Origin: Acidocella sp.
GTDB taxonomy: Bacteria; Pseudomonadota; Alphaproteobacteria; Acetobacterales; Acetobacteraceae
Direction: 5' to 3'
Assembly (NCBI RefSeq): GCF_028687955.1
Contig: NZ_JAQTZC010000001.1
Span: forward strand, 25,870-60,363
DNA: 34,494 nucleotides
Positions within the stretch are counted from its first letter, which is position 1, and each line of letters starts with the position of its first letter. Below are positions 7,521-26,304 of the stretch, one piece after another. The notes under the pieces were generated by a model. The model worked only from the letters and a program-made list of their open reading frames with translations, was not told the origin of the DNA and made no database searches. Position numbers and translations under genes: made by a program.

Positions 7521-8300
7521 ATGCGCCTGAAGGATAAAAGGGTTTTTATCACCGGGGCGGGCGGCGGCATCGGCCGGGCCAGCGCGCTGAAATGCGCCGC
7601 CGAGGGCGCGCGGGTGATTGCTTGCGATATCAACCCCGAGGCCGCCATGCAGAGCGTGCGCGCGGTAGCGGATGCGGGCGGCAGCGCGATGGCGGTGATC
7701 GCGGATCTGACAGATGAAGCAGCCTGCAACAAGGCTTTTGCCGAAGGGGCGGCGGCGTTCGGCGGGCTCGATGTGATTTTCAACAATGCCGGGGTGTGTC
7801 TGAGCGGCGATGATGGGCCGGTGGAAACGGACCTGAGCGTGTGGAACCGCACCATCGCGATCAATCTCACTTCCGTTTTTTTGTGCTGCAAGGCGGGGAT
7901 TCCGTATTTATTGCAAAATGGCAACGGCGTGATCATCAACAATGCCTCGATTGTGGCGTTGGTTGGCTCGGCGTTTCCGCAGATCGCCTATACCGCCGCG
8001 AAAGGCGGTGTGCTGGCGATGACGCGTGAAATTGCCGTGATGTATGCCCGCAAGGGTTTAAGGGCGGTGGCGCTATGCCCAGGGCCGACCGCGACACCGC
8101 TGGTGAAGGCGTTTCTGGCGGATGAGCAAGCCTGGAGGCTGCGACGGCAACATTTGCCAATGGGCCGGTTGGCGCAGCCGGAGGAAATCGCCAATCTGGT
8201 GGCCTTTCTGGCCTCGGATGAAGCCAGTTTCATGACCGGGTCAGCCTATGTCATCGATGGCGGGCTGACCAGCGCGTATGTGATCGACGACACAATTTAA
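7521..8300 (+). CDS. Short-chain dehydrogenase/reductase
   Basis: 259 residues, classical SDR family, NAD(P)-dependent. Visible are the nucleotide-binding TGAGGGIG (residues 11-18), an acidic residue after strand 2 (CDIN, which favours NAD), the NNAG motif at 88-91 and the catalytic set Ser143, Tyr157 and Lys161 (YTAAK). The C-terminus has the usual TGSAYVIDGG. Substrate is unknown. It starts 27 bases after ftsY with an AGAAGGA ribosome site, so it may be the last gene of that transcript. Its last 4 bases overlap the end of hemJ on the opposite strand; the shared TTAA supplies both stop codons. Confidence 0.9.
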   Translation: MRLKDKRVFITGAGGGIGRASALKCAAEGARVIACDINPEAAMQSVRAVADAGGSAMAVIADLTDEAACNKAFAEGAAAFGGLDVIFNNAGVCLSGDDGPVETDLSVWNRTIAINLTSVFLCCKAGIPYLLQNGNGVIINNASIVALVGSAFPQIAYTAAKGGVLAMTREIAVMYARKGLRAVALCPGPTATPLVKAFLADEQAWRLRRQHLPMGRLAQPEEIANLVAFLASDEASFMTGSAYVIDGGLTSAYVIDDTI

Positions 8301-8740
8301 GCAACGACGCAGAAGACGATGATGACGAACAGGACCGTCGGGATTTCATTGGCGATCCGGTAGAATTTTTCGGATTTCGTGTTTGCGTCATTCAGGAAAT
8401 CCCGGCCCCATTTCGAGAGATTTCCGTGAAAGCCGGTCATCAGGAGGATCGCCGTCAACTTGGTCCACCACCAGGCGGCGTGCCAGTTCACAGCCCCCGG
8501 GGTGAGAATGAGCAGGATGCCGAAGAAGAAGGTGGAGAGCATCGCCGGGTTGATGATCTGTTGCAGGAGTCTGCGTTCCATGACCTTGAATCGCGCGGAT
8601 TCAGCCGAGCCCGGCGCAAGCTGGCAGTGATACACATAGAGGCGCGGCAGGTAGAACATTCCGGCCATCCACGCGGTGAAGGAGACGATGTGGAAGGCCA
8701 GGAGGATGTGGAAATAAGGTGTGAGCGCTGCGATTGTCAT
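8297..8740 (-). CDS. hemJ: Protoporphyrinogen IX oxidase HemJ
   Basis: 147 residues, four predicted membrane helices, inner membrane. It matches the HemJ/UPF0093 family, which oxidises protoporphyrinogen IX to protoporphyrin IX, the step before iron insertion. Evidence is the N-terminal helix with conserved histidines (His11 and His17 in YFHILLAFHIVSF), the FYLPRLYVYH segment, the RRL pair after the first loop, the KLTAIL helix start and the C-terminal NEIPT motif. It is the last gene of the hemE operon and overlaps the preceding HAD gene by 4 bases (ATGA). It corresponds to Rickettsia RP883 in the conserved origin cluster. Confidence 0.93.
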   Translation of the reverse strand: MTIAALTPYFHILLAFHIVSFTAWMAGMFYLPRLYVYHCQLAPGSAESARFKVMERRLLQQIINPAMLSTFFFGILLILTPGAVNWHAAWWWTKLTAILLMTGFHGNLSKWGRDFLNDANTKSEKFYRIANEIPTVLFVIIVFCVVA

Positions 8741-9396
8741 GCAAGAAATCCGAACAGATCACTCAGGTTTTGCAAAATGGCGCGGGCGCCGGCGGCAAGC
8801 AGGGGCGCGCCATCGCCATGCGGGGCGAAACCGTAGCACGCCATGCCGGCGGCAACCGCGCCGGTGACGCCAAGCACGCTGTCTTCCAGCACCAGGCAAT
8901 TTCGTGGCTGGGTTTGTGACCCGGCGGCCGCGGCGAGAAACAGATCCGGCGCGGGTTTGGCGCGCCCGCCCTTGGCGATGACACCAGCGGCCGAATAGGC
9001 GCGGCCAGCGGTGAGATGGGCAATACCGGTGTAGGAGAATTTAACGTCCAGCTCTTCATCCGATGAATTGGAGGCGATGCACCAGGGGATGCCAAGCGTA
9101 TTCACGCGCTCCAGCATTTCCCGCGCGCCAGGAATGAGTTTTGATTCCGTGCCAAGCGCTGTCACGAGTTTTTGCGCAAGACCGGCGCGCCAGGTGGCCG
9201 GGAGGATGCGGCCGAGGCGCGCCTCGATGACCGGCTGCATATCGGTAATTGACATGCCAAGAAAACGATCCTGCACCTGTTGCGCGGTGATCTCCCAGCC
9301 AAGATCGCAAAGCTCACGCGCGCAGACGGTGGAAGCGACGCCTTCACTGTCGATCAGCACGCCATCGCAATCAAAAATAATCAATTCAGGCCGCAT
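8737..9396 (-). CDS. HAD-superfamily phosphatase (phosphoglycolate phosphatase/beta-phosphoglucomutase-like)
   Basis: 219 residues from ATG 9396; the frame continues upstream inside hemH, but motif I starts at residue 8, so this start fits. HAD motifs are complete: DCDGVL (nucleophile Asp9, acid Asp11), motif II IASNS (Ser109), motif III Lys147 in RAKPAPD and motif IV LEDSVLG (Glu171, Asp172). A helical cap sits between motifs I and II. This class dephosphorylates small sugar phosphates or nucleotides; the substrate cannot be told. It overlaps hemH by 11 bases upstream and hemJ by 4 bases downstream, so it is co-translated within the haem operon. Confidence 0.88.
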   Translation of the reverse strand: MRPELIIFDCDGVLIDSEGVASTVCARELCDLGWEITAQQVQDRFLGMSITDMQPVIEARLGRILPATWRAGLAQKLVTALGTESKLIPGAREMLERVNTLGIPWCIASNSSDEELDVKFSYTGIAHLTAGRAYSAAGVIAKGGRAKPAPDLFLAAAAGSQTQPRNCLVLEDSVLGVTGAVAAGMACYGFAPHGDGAPLLAAGARAILQNLSDLFGFLA

Positions 9397-10429
9397 ATTT
9401 TGTCCATGGGCAGTTTTTATGTGTGGCGGCGCAGGCGCGGCCGCCCTGATGCGAGCAAAGCCCGTTGCCATGCGCCAGCGCACGGCGGGCAAGGCCTGCC
9501 AGCGCGGCGATGAACGCGGGGTCGCTATTGGGCACGGGGGCGCGGAAATAACCGGGGACGCCGCAATGGGCGGCAAGCTCGCGGTTTTCGATATCAAGCT
9601 CCACCAGCGTCTCGATATGGTCTGAGACGAAGGCGATGGGGATGACCAGTACGGCGGTTTTATCCGCCCCGGCCTGTTCTATGGCTTCAATGGTGCTGGG
9701 CGAGATCCATTTTTGCGGGGTCGCACGCGATTGATAGCAGACCAGATGTTCGACTTGCCTGTCCTTGAGCCGGGCCATGACAGAAGCGACGGAGGCTTCA
9801 ATCTGGGATTGATACGGATCACCCCGCGCGATGATGGATTCAGGCAGGCCATGCGCCGAGAACAACAGGCGCAGCCGCGCGCCGGGGGGCAGGCCGGCCT
9901 TGGCCTGGGCGCTGGCGGCATCCACCAATGCGGCGATGGCATCGGCATAGGCCGGATCGTCAAAATAGCAGCAAAGCGTGGTGGTGGGCTTGATCAGCCC
10001 GGCCTGCGCCGCCGCCTCGTGCCAATTGTTGAGCGAAGAGCCGGTGGTGGTGGTGGAAAACTGCGGATAGAGCGGCAGGAGGAGAATGCGATCAGGGTTA
10101 TAGGCTTTCACCGCGCGCGCGGCCTCCAGCGCGAAGGGGTGCCAGTAGCGCATCGCGATAAAGGTTTTGGTATCGCCCCCCATGGCGCTCTCCAACGCGG
10201 TAGCCTGCGCCTGGGTCGCGGCCAGCAAGGGGGATTTTCCGCCCATGAGCGCGTAGTTTTTCTCCGCCGCCCTGGCTGAGGACCGCGCGATGAGCCGGGC
10301 CAGCCAGAAACGGATGAAAATCGGCGCGCGGATGATGGCCTTGTCGGAAAACAGATTGACGCGGAATTTTTTTATCGCCGCCAGGCTGTCGGGTCCGCCA
10401 AGGTTGAACAGGACGATGGCGGTTTTCAT
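9386..10429 (-). CDS. hemH: Ferrochelatase
   Basis: 347 residues from ATG 10429, which gives the classic N-terminus KTAIVLFNLGGPDS. It inserts Fe(II) into protoporphyrin IX, the last haem step, at the inner face of the membrane. Visible are MRYWHPF, LLPLYPQFSTTTTGS, the active-site histidine in LFSAHGLPESII, the CYQSR segment and the FVSDHIETLVELD motif that carries the metal-pathway acidic residues. The C-terminus has several cysteines (residues CSHQGGRACAATHKNC), which might bind an Fe-S cluster as in some ferrochelatases; this is speculative. It overlaps hemE by 4 bases (ATGA). Confidence 0.96.
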   Translation of the reverse strand: MKTAIVLFNLGGPDSLAAIKKFRVNLFSDKAIIRAPIFIRFWLARLIARSSARAAEKNYALMGGKSPLLAATQAQATALESAMGGDTKTFIAMRYWHPFALEAARAVKAYNPDRILLLPLYPQFSTTTTGSSLNNWHEAAAQAGLIKPTTTLCCYFDDPAYADAIAALVDAASAQAKAGLPPGARLRLLFSAHGLPESIIARGDPYQSQIEASVASVMARLKDRQVEHLVCYQSRATPQKWISPSTIEAIEQAGADKTAVLVIPIAFVSDHIETLVELDIENRELAAHCGVPGYFRAPVPNSDPAFIAALAGLARRALAHGNGLCSHQGGRACAATHKNCPWTKYAA

Positions 10430-11448
10430 GCAGGCATCGCGTTGTTGCGGATCAGTTCCATCAACCGCGCGATATTTTCCGGCGGCACATCCGGGGTGAT
10501 GCCATGGCCGAGATTGAAGACATGAGGAGTGCCGCGGAAGGCTTGCAGCAGCCGCGCAACCCCGGTTTCCAGCGCCGCGCCGCCGGATTTGAGCAGCAGC
10601 GGGTCCAGATTGCCCTGAAACACCGTGCCGGGCGGACAGGCGGCAATGGCGGCGGCGGGGTCTGTCACCGTGTCCAGGCTGACCGCGTCCACCCCTGTTT
10701 CGCGCACATATTCGCCCAGCAGCAGGCCGCACAGTCGGGGAAAGCCGATGATTTTAAGGCCAGGATTGGCGGATTTGAGTGCCGAGACGATGCGCCGGTT
10801 CGGTTCGATGACAAATTGGCGGAATTGCGAGGCGGGGAAAATACCGGCCCAGCTCTCAAACAGCATGACGCAGTTGGCTCCGGCGGTAATTTGGCCTTGC
10901 AGGTAGGTGATGGTGGCTTCCACCAGAATATCCAGCACCGATTGCACTAAAGCGGAGTTTTCATACGCCAATGCGCGGGTACGCGGAAAATCGCCGCCGC
11001 CTTTGCCATCCAGCATATAGCACGCCACGGTCGCGGGGCCGCCGGCAAAGCCGATCAGCGCGGTTTGTGGTGGCAGGGCTGCACGGACACGCCGAACGGT
11101 CTCCAGCACCGGCGCATAGACGCCTGGGGCGGCGGCAATGTTCAGCCCGGCGGAATTTTGCAGCGGCGGCAGGAGCGGGCCCTCGCCTTCGGCAAAACGC
11201 AGACCCTGCCCTAGAGCCATGGGGAGGATGAGAATGTCGGAAAAGAGGATCGCGGCGTCAAACCCATAGCGGCGGATGGGTTGCAGGGTGACTTCAGCGG
11301 CGAGTTCCGGGTTCAGGCAGAGCGAGATGAAATCTCCCGCCTGGCCGCGCACGGCGCGGTATTCAGACAGGTATCGTCCGGCCTGACGCATCAGCCACAC
11401 CGGCGGCGGCGAGATCGCCTCGCCGTTCAATACACGCATTAATTTCAT
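10426..11448 (-). CDS. hemE: Uroporphyrinogen decarboxylase
   Basis: 340 residues, normal length. It decarboxylates the four acetate groups of uroporphyrinogen III to give coproporphyrinogen III in the cytoplasm. The family signature PVWLMRQAGRYLSEYR is at residues 16-31 (binding Arg21 and Arg25), with the catalytic Asp in ILFSDIL and the C-terminal FNLGHGI histidine. A GGGAG ribosome site precedes the ATG. It is the first gene of the operon hemE-hemH-HAD-hemJ, which carries three of the late haem steps but not coproporphyrinogen oxidase. Its promoter must lie in the adjacent origin region, so haem synthesis and initiation may share regulatory DNA, as in Caulobacter. Confidence 0.97.
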   Translation of the reverse strand: MKLMRVLNGEAISPPPVWLMRQAGRYLSEYRAVRGQAGDFISLCLNPELAAEVTLQPIRRYGFDAAILFSDILILPMALGQGLRFAEGEGPLLPPLQNSAGLNIAAAPGVYAPVLETVRRVRAALPPQTALIGFAGGPATVACYMLDGKGGGDFPRTRALAYENSALVQSVLDILVEATITYLQGQITAGANCVMLFESWAGIFPASQFRQFVIEPNRRIVSALKSANPGLKIIGFPRLCGLLLGEYVRETGVDAVSLDTVTDPAAAIAACPPGTVFQGNLDPLLLKSGGAALETGVARLLQAFRGTPHVFNLGHGITPDVPPENIARLMELIRNNAMPA

Positions 11449-11578
11449 AACTCCCGCTTAGAGCAAGATGGCGGGTTCTAAAACCCATCCCGGAGAAAAA
11501 TCGGGAATGGCTGTGAAAGTGGGAAAACCACCCTCTTTATCTCTTTTAAGTTAAACGAAGGAGGGGGCAGTGGTACCC

Positions 11579-11587
11579 TGTGGATAG
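11579..11587 (-). promoter_or_regulatory. DnaA box, one mismatch
   Basis: The plus strand reads TGTGGATAG, i.e. CTATCCACA on the minus strand, one base from consensus. It faces the perfect box 36 bases away in the opposite direction. Confidence 0.65.
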
Positions 11588-11623
11588 TGGGGGTTAAGGC
11601 AAGCACGGATAAAGTCCACAAGG

Positions 11624-11632
11624 TTATCCACA
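11624..11632 (+). promoter_or_regulatory. DnaA box, perfect consensus
   Basis: TTATCCACA exactly matches the high-affinity DnaA binding consensus, in the middle of the putative origin. Confidence 0.8.
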
Positions 11633-11801
11633 GCAAGATACAAGCTTTAACCTGTTGATTCTAACGTATCGGGCTAGTTTTCCCACAAGTGAGGAGGGAA
11701 CCCCCTGTTAAGCATCCCCAGTTTACTGTTTCGTAACTTTATCCCCGGTCGCCGGAAAATTCTTCGCGCATGGGAAAACAATCCACGCTATCAACAGCGG
11801 C

Positions 11802-12668
11802 ATGGAAAGTTATAAACACAATATACACCTGATATCCGATGCGACCGGTGACACATTAAGTGCGCTGGCAAGGGCAGCCGTAGCCCAGTTTGATGAAAGC
11901 CAGGTTAATTACCATCGCTGGTCATTGATTCGTTCACGATTGCAGTTGCATCGCGTGCTGGAGGGGGTTCACGCCGAACCGGGGCTGGTATTGTGTTCCT
12001 TGCTGGATACCGCGCTGCGCGAGGAGCTGGATGCGGCCTGTGCGCGGCTGGGTGTGCCGCTGTTGCATGTGCTGGACCCGCTGCTGGAGTTGTTGCAGGG
12101 GCAGTTCGGCGCGCCGGCGAAGCATAAGCCTGGGCGCCAGTATGTGCTGGATGCGGATTATTTCCGCCGCATCGACGCGATGCATTACGTGATTTCGCAT
12201 GATGACGGGCAGGCGCACCGGGGCATGGCGGAGGCGGATGTCGTGCTTGTGGGGGTGTCGCGCTCATCCAAGACACCAACATGCTTCTACCTTGCCAACA
12301 GAGGCATCAAGGCCGCCAATATTCCACTGGTGCCGGGAATTGAGCCGCCGGAATTGCTGAAAGACCCAAACTGCCCGGTGATTGGCCTGACCATCGATCC
12401 GAAATCGCTGATCGGTATTCGCCGCCATCGCCTGCGCCTGCTCGGCGCGGGGGCGCAGCCGGGCTTTGCCCAGAAGAATAATGGTGAATATGTGGATTTT
12501 GAAGCGGTGGAAAAGGAGCTGCTATGGGCCAAACGGCTGTGCAACGCGCGGGGCTGGCCCACCATCGACGTAACGCACCGCTCCATCGAGGAAACGGCGG
12601 CCACGGTGCTTAAGCTCATGGATGCCTGGCACGCCAAGCATGACAAGTTGGCGGAAAAGGACAAATAG
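11802..12668 (+). CDS. ppsR: PEP synthase / pyruvate phosphate dikinase regulatory protein (DUF299)
   Basis: 288 residues. This family is a bifunctional kinase/pyrophosphorylase that switches PEP synthase or pyruvate phosphate dikinase off and on by threonine phosphorylation, linking glycolysis and gluconeogenesis. Evidence is the N-terminal [11 protein letters not shown], the P-loop-like [10 protein letters not shown] near residue 150, [16 protein letters not shown], the LTIDPKSL segment and the C-terminal [13 protein letters not shown], all family hallmarks. ATG 11802 places the first strand correctly. It corresponds to Rickettsia RP001, the right-hand marker gene of the alphaproteobacterial origin. 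An inverted repeat starts at its stop codon. Confidence 0.93.
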
Positions 12669-24094: not shown

Positions 24095-24133
24095 ACGGGC
24101 CATCCGGGAACCGCCAGAGTGCGATGGCGTCTC

Positions 24134-24258
24134 ATACCAGCCCGCCAAGAGCTTGACTCTCTGGGTTTGGTGGCGGGCTGGTATAAGTTCTTGATTTTGC
24201 GCGCGGCCGCCCCACCAGCCCCGCGCGCATACCAGTCAGCCTTAAGGCTGACTGGTAT
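24134..24258 (-). repeat. 125-bp palindromic repeat element, copy 4 (inverted)
   Basis: The same 125-bp element in the opposite orientation. Its only difference from consensus is AGAGCTT to AGAACTT. It lies between the lysR stop and the lysR terminator hairpin (24276-24299), so it appears to have inserted into the 3' untranslated region. Flanks (CTC left, CAG right) show no target duplication. Confidence 0.93.
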
Positions 24259-24275
24259 CAGCCATCTGACCCTGG

Positions 24276-24299
24276 AACCGGCGGATAAGGCCGGTTTTT
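24276..24299 (+). terminator. Rho-independent terminator of trxB-lysR
   Basis: AACCGGC (24276-24282), a 7-base loop GGATAAG, then GCCGGTT (24290-24296) running into TTTT (24296-24299). It is the first terminator-like hairpin with a T-run after lysR, 182 bases past the stop codon, because repeat copy 4 lies between. Confidence 0.65.
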
Positions 24300-24420
24300 A
24301 GGCAAAGTGGCGCGCTATTATGCACGAAGCGCGTGGCAGGCGCGCGACCAGCGGTTGTAAAAAGGCCGATATTACGAAATTAACACTTAAAAATTTTTTG
24401 GTTGTGGCCTATATACAACA

Positions 24421-24548
24421 TTGTTCGGTGCGAGCCGGACTCGTTCAACCCGCGAGGGTTGGATTGGGACTTTGGTCCCAACGTCTCCCAGACGTGAAGC
24501 CTCCCTGTTGACTTGACCCGCAAGCCCCTAGGCTGCGGGTCTTTTTTT
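24421..24548 (+). ncRNA. Candidate small regulatory RNA with intrinsic terminator
   Basis: An intergenic stretch with dense stable hairpins and no credible reading frame. In order: CGAG/CTCG (24431-24443), CAACCC-GCGA-GGGTTG with a GNRA tetraloop (24446-24461), TTGGGAC-TTTG-GTCCCAA (24464-24481), CGTCT-CCC-AGACG (24482-24494), an unpaired segment containing CCTCCC (24500-24505, complementary to a Shine-Dalgarno sequence), and a strong terminator. Upstream is an AT-rich stretch with TATATACAA (24410-24418) that could be a -10 region; no good -35 was found, so the 5' end is approximate. The layout of hairpins, exposed CCTCC and terminator is typical of small RNAs that block ribosome binding. 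I cannot assign a known family. Its Shine-Dalgarno-like end and position between two repeat copies are the only context. Confidence 0.6.
24515..24548 (+). terminator. Strong rho-independent terminator of the candidate sRNA
   Basis: GACCCGC-A-AGCC (24515-24526) pairs with GGCT-GCGGGTC (24531-24541) around the loop CCTA, an 11-bp stem with one bulged A. Seven T bases follow (24542-24548). Confidence 0.88.
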
Positions 24549-24555
24549 GGAGGTA

Positions 24556-24680
24556 ATACCAGTCAGCCTTAAGGCTGACTGGTATGCGCGCGGGGCTGGT
24601 GGGGCGGCCGCGCGCAAAATCAAGAGCTTATACCAGCCCGCCACCAAATCCAGAGAGTCAAGCTCTTGGCGGGCTGGTAT
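24556..24680 (+). repeat. 125-bp palindromic repeat element, copy 5
   Basis: Same orientation as copies 1-3, 7 bases after the sRNA terminator and 120 bases before the convergent kinase gene's 3' end region. One private change (AAACCCAG to AAATCCAG). With the inverted copy 4 it flanks the sRNA as a 547-bp inverted-repeat unit (24134-24680). Between copy 5 and the kinase gene (24681-24800) I see nothing further. Confidence 0.93.
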
Positions 24681-24800
24681 TAAACCAATCAGGTCCTGTG
24701 AGCCTCCCCCGTTCCATTTCCGCACCAAACCCGCCCAAACTGGGGAGCAAGCAAAAAATTCCCCAGAAAAACCAATCACTTCTGCCAAAAACGCCACAAA

Positions 24801-24816
24801 CGCTCCACGTGGAGCG
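24801..24816. other. Perfect 16-bp palindrome with CACGTG core (terminator or parS-like)
   Basis: CGCTCCACGTGGAGCG directly abuts the kinase stop codon at 24817-24819. On the minus strand it is followed by a moderately T-rich stretch (TTTGTGGCGTTTTT), so it may act as a transcription terminator. The inner TCCACGTGGA also equals the centre of parS-type ParB sites (as I recall them, TGTTCCACGTGGAACA), with 12 of 16 positions matching. Confidence 0.5.
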
Positions 24817-26304
24817 TCACCCCACGTCCCAAAGCCGGTGGTTAACCTCCACCAGCCCCGCCTGCGCATCCTTATAAATCCCGAACAAACGGCCATACAT
24901 CGCATGCGCCGCCGCATCCGGCGCGGTCACATCCAGCAACCGCACGCAGCGCGCCACCGCCTGCGCGGGTGAGGCAAACATCCCCACCCCCACACCCGCC
25001 ACCAGCGCCGCGCCAAATGAGGCATCCCCCGCCTCGGTCCGCTCCATCACCAGCCCGGTCACATCAGCGATGATCCTGCGCCAAGCCGCGCTGCGCGCCC
25101 CGCCGCCCATCAGCCGTATCACCCCAAATTCCAGCCCCAGCCCGCGCGCCGCCTCCAGCAGATCGCGAATGGAAAACGCAATCCCCTCATAGAGCGCGCG
25201 CGCGAAATGCGCCCGCGTGTGGGAAATCGTCAGCCCGATGAAATCGCCGCGCAGCAGCGGGTCCCAATAGGGGGCGCGCTCACCCTGCAAATACGGATGA
25301 AACAGCAGCCCATCCGCCCCGGCCGGCGCCTCGCCCGCCAGCACATCCATCTCCGCGAACCCGCCCTGCGCGAACATCAGATCGCGCAGCCAGCGGTGCG
25401 CCGAGGCGCAGGAGTTCGTCCCCGTCGCGGTGTAGTACATCCCCGGCATGATATGCGGATAACAGGAAACCGGCGGGTTCACGCGCGGCCCCTGCGTCGC
25501 CAGATACAACACCCCCGCTGTCGCCAGTTTCACCCCGCCCACCCCGGGTGTCACGGCTCCCACGCCAAAAAATTCCACTGTGGTATCGTTCGCGCCGCAC
25601 ACCACCGGCGTTCCCGCCGCCAGCCCGCAGGCCGCGGCGGCGGCGGGCAACACGCCCCCCACCACGGATGTGGCCTCCACAATCGGCGGCAGGCGCGCCA
25701 TGTCCCAGCCGATCAACCCGCAAAGCTCGGTTGACCAGCCGCGCGTGGCGTCCTCGGCCAGCAGGCTCCCCACCGCGTCGGAGAAATCCGTCTCCCAGGT
25801 TCCGGTCAGGCAAAAGCGCAGATAATCCTTCGCCAGATACAACCGCCGCACCCGCGCCATCACCTCCGGCTCATGGTTCTGCAACCAGGCCAGCATCGCC
25901 AGCGTCCAGGTTGGGTTCACCCGGTTCAGGCCGATCTCCACAATCCGCGCCCCGGCCCGCGCCTGCAACGCGGCGGCCTCGGCGGCGCTGCGCTGGTCGT
26001 TCCACATAATCGCCGGGCGCAGCGCATGGCCCGCCGCATCGGTCAGCACCGGAATATGCGCCCCGGCCGAAACGCCAACCCCGGCGATGTCCCCGGCTCC
26101 GATCCCCGCCGCCTCCAGCGCCTCGGGCACCGCCCGGCACAACGCGGCAAACCATTCCGCCGGGTCCTGCTCAGACCATCCCGGCCGCGCCACCACGGTG
26201 GTCACCGGCGTGCTCGCCTCGCCCGCAACCTTCCCGGCCGCGTTGATGATCGAGACCTTGAGGCTGCTCGCCCCCAGATCGATGCCGCATAGAAATTTTG
26301 TCAT
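24817..26304 (-). CDS. FGGY carbohydrate kinase, xylulokinase-like
   Basis: 495 residues, close to the xylulokinase length. It phosphorylates a sugar or polyol with ATP. Visible are the N-terminal phosphate loop GIDLGASSLKV, SEQDPAEWF, ALRPAIMWNDQRSAAEA, KDYLRFCLTG, DFSDAVG, the catalytic Asp in CGANDTTVEFFGVG, and the adenosine motif LMGGGARSAAWR. The substrate segment that is GQMHG in XylB reads VSAGAH here, so the substrate may not be xylulose. The start overlaps the murI stop by 4 bases, so it is the last gene of the cell-wall operon, an unusual place for a sugar kinase. Confidence 0.88.
   Translation of the reverse strand: MTKFLCGIDLGASSLKVSIINAAGKVAGEASTPVTTVVARPGWSEQDPAEWFAALCRAVPEALEAAGIGAGDIAGVGVSAGAHIPVLTDAAGHALRPAIMWNDQRSAAEAAALQARAGARIVEIGLNRVNPTWTLAMLAWLQNHEPEVMARVRRLYLAKDYLRFCLTGTWETDFSDAVGSLLAEDATRGWSTELCGLIGWDMARLPPIVEATSVVGGVLPAAAAACGLAAGTPVVCGANDTTVEFFGVGAVTPGVGGVKLATAGVLYLATQGPRVNPPVSCYPHIMPGMYYTATGTNSCASAHRWLRDLMFAQGGFAEMDVLAGEAPAGADGLLFHPYLQGERAPYWDPLLRGDFIGLTISHTRAHFARALYEGIAFSIRDLLEAARGLGLEFGVIRLMGGGARSAAWRRIIADVTGLVMERTEAGDASFGAALVAGVGVGMFASPAQAVARCVRLLDVTAPDAAAHAMYGRLFGIYKDAQAGLVEVNHRLWDVG

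Follow-up and report, generated by a model that had tools for sequence, protein, structure and literature searches.

Comparative analysis indicates that the 353 bp separating hemE from a divergent PPPase gene (positions 11449-11801) are very probably the chromosomal oriC of an acid-loving, Acidocella-like bacterium and a positional homologue of the origin that Caulobacter and Rickettsia have beside hemE. The proposed origin combines low GC content with a conserved array of DnaA boxes and, in two relatives, a skew minimum at or near the corresponding gap. It lies in the window, i.e. the whole stretch of 34,494 nucleotides that was analysed, which represents positions 25870-60363 of contig C5 (60,363 bases) in a 2.15 Mb draft of 122 contigs. 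A sequence-only reading had proposed an origin at this place. The proposal was supported by the box array, by the skew minimum near the gap in the relative G039 (a shallow one in G016) and by parB genes nearby in some relatives; the skew of the window's own contig points the other way. Judged by its sequence, the gap would be an ordinary member of the hemE-linked type of alphaproteobacterial origin. For Acidocella and some of its family, the reading supplies an origin model at the level of sequence, which sequencing depth alone could test.

Locus and flanking genes

The left flank of the gap is hemE, encoding uroporphyrinogen decarboxylase (10426-11448, minus strand; PF01208, E=1.5e-105), and the right flank is the gene of a PPPase/DUF299/COG1806 kinase/phosphorylase of the RP001 type (11802-12668, plus strand; PF03618, E=2.8e-86), followed by a class IV aminotransferase gene. 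Coordinates and Pfam matches agree with the earlier description of 353 non-coding bases between hemE and an RP001 homologue, and they place 11449-11801 in the divergent hemE-COG1806/DUF299 intergenic setting of hemE-linked alphaproteobacterial origins. Beyond hemE, the minus strand carries hemH for ferrochelatase (9386-10429; PF00762, E=3.3e-103, residues 103-418 of the open reading frame 9386-10732, the start being placed from the domain position), a HAD-type hydrolase gene (8737-9410, start approximate; PF00702, E=9.7e-18) and hemJ (UPF0093, RP883 type, 8297-8740; PF03653, E=2.6e-53). All genes of the reported order DUF299, hemE, hemH, hemJ are present; hemH and hemJ are not directly adjacent, since the hydrolase gene intervenes. 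An Rfam search of the window returned nothing at gathering thresholds. The close named relatives of the PPPase protein are from Acidocella species, and the related drafts are labelled Acidocella, Proteobacteria, Alphaproteobacteria, Acetobacteraceae, 'bacterium' or, once, Rhodovastum. PPPase proteins of Acidiphilium and Acetobacter are more distant from that of the window than the Acidocella ones.

According to the description in PMC1914354, the Caulobacter origin is located between hemE and COG1806 and combines five CtrA sites with DnaA boxes and an IHF site, and the Rickettsia prowazekii origin occupies the same hemE-COG1806 gap. The gap studied here resembles the C. crescentus origin Cori in its two flanking genes, its DnaA boxes and an AT-rich stretch, and its predicted IHF-like site may correspond to the IHF site of Cori; however, the five CtrA sites of Cori have the form TTAA-N7-TTAA (PMC1914354), and none of this form was found in 27 Acidocella-group gaps. 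The R. prowazekii origin (RP001-hemE), likened here by description only, is also a gap between hemE and the COG1806 orthologue, but it is longer than 400 bp and CtrA sites are reported for it (PMC1914354). The predicted Wolbachia origin keeps the hemE flank as well as DnaA and IHF sites, whereas its other flank is COG1253 (PMC1914354). CtrA sites of the TTAA-N7-TTAA form were rejected as a control element of the present gaps. Their absence is a bar to CtrA control of the Cori type and not to origin function, since some of the predicted origins described in PMC1914354 are also without CtrA sites. Among the openly licensed matches listed, there was no paper on an Acidocella or Acidiphilium origin.

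DnaA boxes in the gap and its relatives

The gap was described as AT-rich for its genome, and with the window rather than the whole genome as reference this holds: its G+C content is 48.7% compared to 64.3%, i.e. 51% versus 36% A+T. A block at 11533-11560 on the hemE side, noted before as AT-rich, reaches 71% A+T and is a putative DNA-unwinding element. To follow the elements of the gap through related genomes, we compared 27 gaps, comprising the window and 26 relatives, some of them very close, with 51-96% identity to the window. We call this set the Acidocella group because several drafts carry other genus names or none. One locus (L053) that represents the same gap as L020 but is made unreadable by Ns was excluded, and an Acidiphilium locus (L055) was kept separate. 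In all 27 gaps, the corresponding 30-base stretch, at roughly -271 to -241 relative to the downstream start codon, has an A+T content of 57-80%.

Across the same gaps, DnaA boxes occur, to within two bases, at offsets of -223 (inverted), -178, -123, -63 and -23 from the start codon. Both of the stronger boxes that had been claimed were recovered. Box B2, a perfect TTATCCACA at 11624-11632 on the plus strand (offset -178), is perfect in 26 of 27 gaps and has one mismatch in the other, and the inverted one-mismatch box B1, CTATCCACA at 11579-11587 on the minus strand (offset -223), is within one mismatch in 26 of 27; both stay within two bases of their offset. The PPPase gene was matched in 18 of 19 genomes of the genus (the window's own included), the gap was readable in 17 of these 18, and in every one of the 17 a perfect TTATCCACA precedes the start of PPPase by 177-179 bases. 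A half-like box, AAGTCCACA at 11612-11620 on the plus strand, lies 12 bp before B2; it is visible in the alignment, and 24 of the 27 gaps have CCACA somewhere from -194 to -181.

The weaker boxes that had been mentioned are also present, with two-mismatch sequences at 11679, 11739 and 11788. B3 (TTTCCCACA, 11679-11687, plus strand, offset -123) is within two mismatches in 26 of 27 gaps, no more than two bases from its offset, and within one mismatch in 11. B4 (TTATCCCCG, 11739-11747, plus strand, offset -63) is a weak box that is found within two mismatches in 26 gaps and within one in 4. Another weak box, B5 (CAATCCACG, 11779-11787, plus strand, offset -23), reads TTATCCACG in 7 of 27 gaps; it is within two mismatches in 18 gaps and has three in the remaining 9, including the window. 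The sequence TCCACGCTAT around B5 (11779-11793), which lies just upstream of the PPPase start, belongs to the most strongly conserved parts of the gap, and it may also function in the promoter or leader of PPPase.

Between B2 and B3, a predicted IHF-like site was observed at 11648-11660 (plus strand TAACCTGTTGATT, the consensus being on the minus strand), and YAANNNNYTGATW is found there in 18 of 27 gaps. The IHF consensus that was matched is degenerate. The GANTC site of the earlier description exists at 11657, but as a conserved feature it did not hold, since only 11 of 27 gaps have GANTC near this place; GANTC was thus rejected as a conserved control element. Gap length differs within the group, with 353-362 bp in the window's clade compared to 279-283 bp in the other gaps, and the extra 70 or so bases of this clade lie between hemE and the AT-rich block (11449-11535 in the window).

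If the gap is an origin, DnaA would bind the strong box B2 and the inverted B1 and would then spread across the weaker sites B3-B5, assisted by DNA bending at the IHF-like site. The AT-rich block on the hemE side would open, and helicase would be loaded there, so that two forks could depart.

A chance cluster of DnaA-like sequences would agree with the genome-wide count of perfect boxes, which are not enriched (9 in 2.15 Mb versus 8 for the reversed control pattern). However, in 5000 dinucleotide shuffles of the gap, a perfect box appeared in 0.12%, at least five boxes within two mismatches likewise in 0.12%, and no shuffle combined a perfect box with another one having at most one mismatch. 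Elsewhere on the contig there is a single perfect box, at C5:24265, and within 400 bases of it no further box has one mismatch or fewer. Places common to at least 8 of the 27 gaps, allowing a one-base slip and one mismatch, were -178 (27 gaps), -222 (25) and -123 (11). Among 300 permuted motifs, 295 gave no such place and 5 gave one, the best being common to 18 gaps; box registers were merged in this control, so that one box in two registers counts once. The permuted motifs fall short of the fixed places that the boxes keep across diverged gaps, and a chance cluster is extremely improbable. The significance rests on box clustering and conservation and not on the number of perfect boxes. A conserved cluster of DnaA boxes beyond chance, as belongs to a hemE-linked origin, is present in the gap.

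The array was in part also observed outside the genus. In Acidiphilium iwatense, boxes occupy the three common offsets -178, -222 and -123 of the Acidocella group. A PPPase match was found in 97 of 150 genomes of the order, and the best 27 new loci of these matches, one of which belongs to the Acidocella group, were inspected. The divergent hemE is present in 24 of the 27, and 22 of these 24 family gaps contain at least one box within one mismatch; the other two contain none. Where three boxes are recognisable (L088, L099, L100, L102 and L113), the inverted and the strong box are 43-45 bases apart and the next step is 54-55. Some other genera thus share the spacing of the Acidocella group almost exactly. 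More distant loci of the class (n=6) have the divergent hemE in four cases, all four with boxes at other spacings. At eight Acetobacter loci, the PPPase gene is without divergent hemE, and a single distant one-mismatch box was found in just two of them.

GC skew and rearrangements around the gap

A skew minimum far from the locus had been named beforehand as a finding that would refute the origin reading. On the window's contig, the outcome of this test speaks against the reading and is the main evidence against it; in two relatives (G006 and G008) it does so in part. Each 1-kb bin of this contig between 2 kb and 50 kb has positive skew. As no minimum marks the gap, the window's skew was rejected as direct support. 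The nearest change from negative to positive on C5 lies on the hemE side at a distance of about 35 kb, and it is based on two weak bins at the contig start. Skew has been described as insufficient for locating the origin in several alphaproteobacteria (PMC1914354), and Ori-Finder has been used for origin prediction without a clear skew (PMC3794950).

Among relatives, the expected minimum was found in some genomes and missed in others. G039, a member of the same family assembled as one contig (2,738,877 bp), has positive skew from 0 to 1.28 Mb and negative skew from 1.40 to 2.66 Mb (10/10 samples each). Its cumulative skew minimum is at about -0.9 kb (1 kb steps) and its hemE-PPPase gap at about 2.6-3.0 kb, i.e. 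within 4 kb. For G016:C45, taken as Acidocella sp. KAb 2-4, the minimum is shallow; it falls into the 60-65 kb bin, next to the PPPase start at 65.4 kb, on a curve that varies little from 40 to 95 kb. The minimum is off the gap in the two other informative cases: it is 16 kb away in G006:C8, and in G008:C67 (taken as A. aquatica NBRC 112502) the gap at 204 kb lies between near-equal minima at about 168 and 250 kb, at distances of about 36 and 46 kb. The flat skew of G172 and the weak skew of G049 were set aside as uninformative.

Genes of G008 were called by a simple custom script, and the skew at their third codon positions has the same sign on both strands in 32 of the 35 10-kb bins that have both, which indicates that the skew there reflects mostly replication and not gene direction. 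On contig G008:C67 (L065-L083), at least five clear skew sign changes occur in 370 kb, mostly common to the genes of both strands.

Alignment with A. aquatica revealed rearrangements at the locus. C5:1-31558 matches G008:166761-198973 directly, C5:31621-42439, which includes the gap, matches G008:211087-199181 in inverted orientation, and the next two blocks of C5 match G008:249665-240316 (inverted) and 224773-235541 (direct). The inverted block containing the proposed origin thus measures about 12 kb and is nearly centred on the gap, with further pieces rearranged around it. A sharp turn from positive to negative skew occurs near 24.2 kb of the window (about 24100-24820), not far from where synteny with A. 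aquatica is interrupted, at about 24.5-24.8 kb (C5:50418/50689). It seems likely that the region around the A. aquatica origin is rich in inversions. Given the reversed orientation of the block with respect to the adjoining one in A. aquatica, inversions might be the reason for the missing minimum; they plausibly explain the odd skew of the window, which then weakens the origin reading but does not overturn it.

The same skew data would also fit an ancestral origin from which initiation has moved tens of kb hemE-ward in the window's lineage, to about 2 kb on C5 and about 250 kb in G008, as minima do lie on the hemE side at about 35 kb in C5 and 46 kb in G008. However, the box array is intact in this very lineage (L030-L034), with B1 within one mismatch and B2 perfect. 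The two minima are also not orthologous, as C5:1-31558 matches the sequence on the other side of the gap in G008, and several flips within one 370 kb contig would point to inversions. We therefore regard a relocated origin as very improbable, and an origin at 11449-11801 itself as the better explanation. Where the skew signal is obscured by draft assembly and inversions, the hemE gap is nevertheless recognisable.

hemE, dnaA and partition genes in the family

The pattern of the first box pair was scanned in the 150 genomes of the order and matched 30 of them; the reversed control matched 2. By comparison with the PPPase matches, the pair is in the PPPase gap in 18 of the 30 genomes, just upstream of hemE on a contig without PPPase in two (G045 and G152), and away from any PPPase match in 10, the position being defined relative to PPPase only. 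It occurs once in the window's own genome. The other 120 genomes are without the pattern, including G006 of the Acidocella group, which is missed because the first box differs there.

For G035 and G114, two further family members with single contigs, skew was read at low resolution, from 11 and 9 stretches of 20 kb, respectively. G035 (1.96 Mb, no PPPase match) turns from negative to positive skew between 20 and 30 kb, with hemE at 24.2 kb and dnaA at 0.995 Mb, the opposite skew turn. G114 measures 3.73 Mb and has its PPPase gene at 0.86 Mb. Its turn from negative to positive is at about 3.2-3.6 Mb, although the sample at 0 Mb is flat, and hemE is at 3.56 Mb; the opposite turn is at 1.6-2.0 Mb, with dnaA past it at 2.14 Mb. 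Each of the two genomes has one near-match box only (TTATCCAGA) in the 500 bases upstream of hemE. In both genomes, dnaA would be near the presumed terminus. Since skew turns near hemE in G035 and G114 while dnaA is at or beyond the opposite turn, our data suggest hemE as a better origin marker than dnaA for this family. Family members whose hemE has no PPPase neighbour are paralleled by the non-PPPase flank described for Wolbachia (PMC1914354).

These observations also bear on the idea that the gap is a DnaA-controlled divergent promoter region of hemE and PPPase, with the origin elsewhere. The gap is indeed a divergent intergenic region in which B5 is only 23 bases before the PPPase start, and the missing minimum on the window's own contig would be expected. 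On the other hand, this idea does not account for the skew minima near the gap in G039 and G016, for the box pair just upstream of hemE in two genomes that have PPPase on another contig, or for the skew turns near hemE in two genomes where PPPase is absent or far. A promoter region in place of an origin is thus improbable. A promoter role could be compatible with origin function at the gap.

Taken further, the preferred reading of the gap as oriC leads to an origin module of the family, consisting of an inverted box, 43-45 bases, a strong box, 54-55 bases and a third box, which would be tied to hemE and not to dnaA or PPPase and would be without CtrA sites of the Caulobacter type. Around Acidocella, the module would stay in place in an inversion-scrambled region where gene order and skew mislead, and in some members dnaA would be near the terminus. 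We give this generalization an even chance of being correct. Acetobacter origins have been placed near dnaA by prediction (PMC3751514, PMC13209655), including that of Acetobacter cerevisiae, which a 2026 paper puts beside dnaA at a skew maximum (PMC13209655). If the module is real, the published placement of origins next to dnaA may be wrong for related acetic acid bacteria.

The partition genes were located as well. parB is 5-7 kb from PPPase in three of six Acidocella-group genomes (G005, G006 and G016), on other contigs than PPPase in the window's genome (G000) and G013, and 42 kb away in G008. The distance is likewise 5-7 kb in G039 and about 15 kb in G172. In G039, parB is at 9.2 kb and parS-like sites are at 11.2, 11.3 and 15.1 kb, so that parB/parS are 6-12 kb from the gap. 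Two looser sites of G039 are at 39 and 251 kb, and its dnaA is at 187 kb. The class relatives G027 and G030 have parS-like sites at distances of 6-16 kb. In none of the eight genomes examined is dnaA nearby: it is more than 180 kb distant or located on a different contig.

In G000, G006 and G008, parS-like sites read TGCTCCACGTGGAGCA or TGCTTCACGTGAAGCA, which we take to be a variant of the usual parS core. They were observed at C72:1765, C58:22730 and C79:1136 in G000, at eight sites in G008 and at G006:C8:98647. On G008:C67, these sites and the skew minima at first seemed to be linked, but one of the three sites there is beside parB, and a sample of three is too small for such a link. One site of this type is located beside parB in each of G000, G006 and G008.
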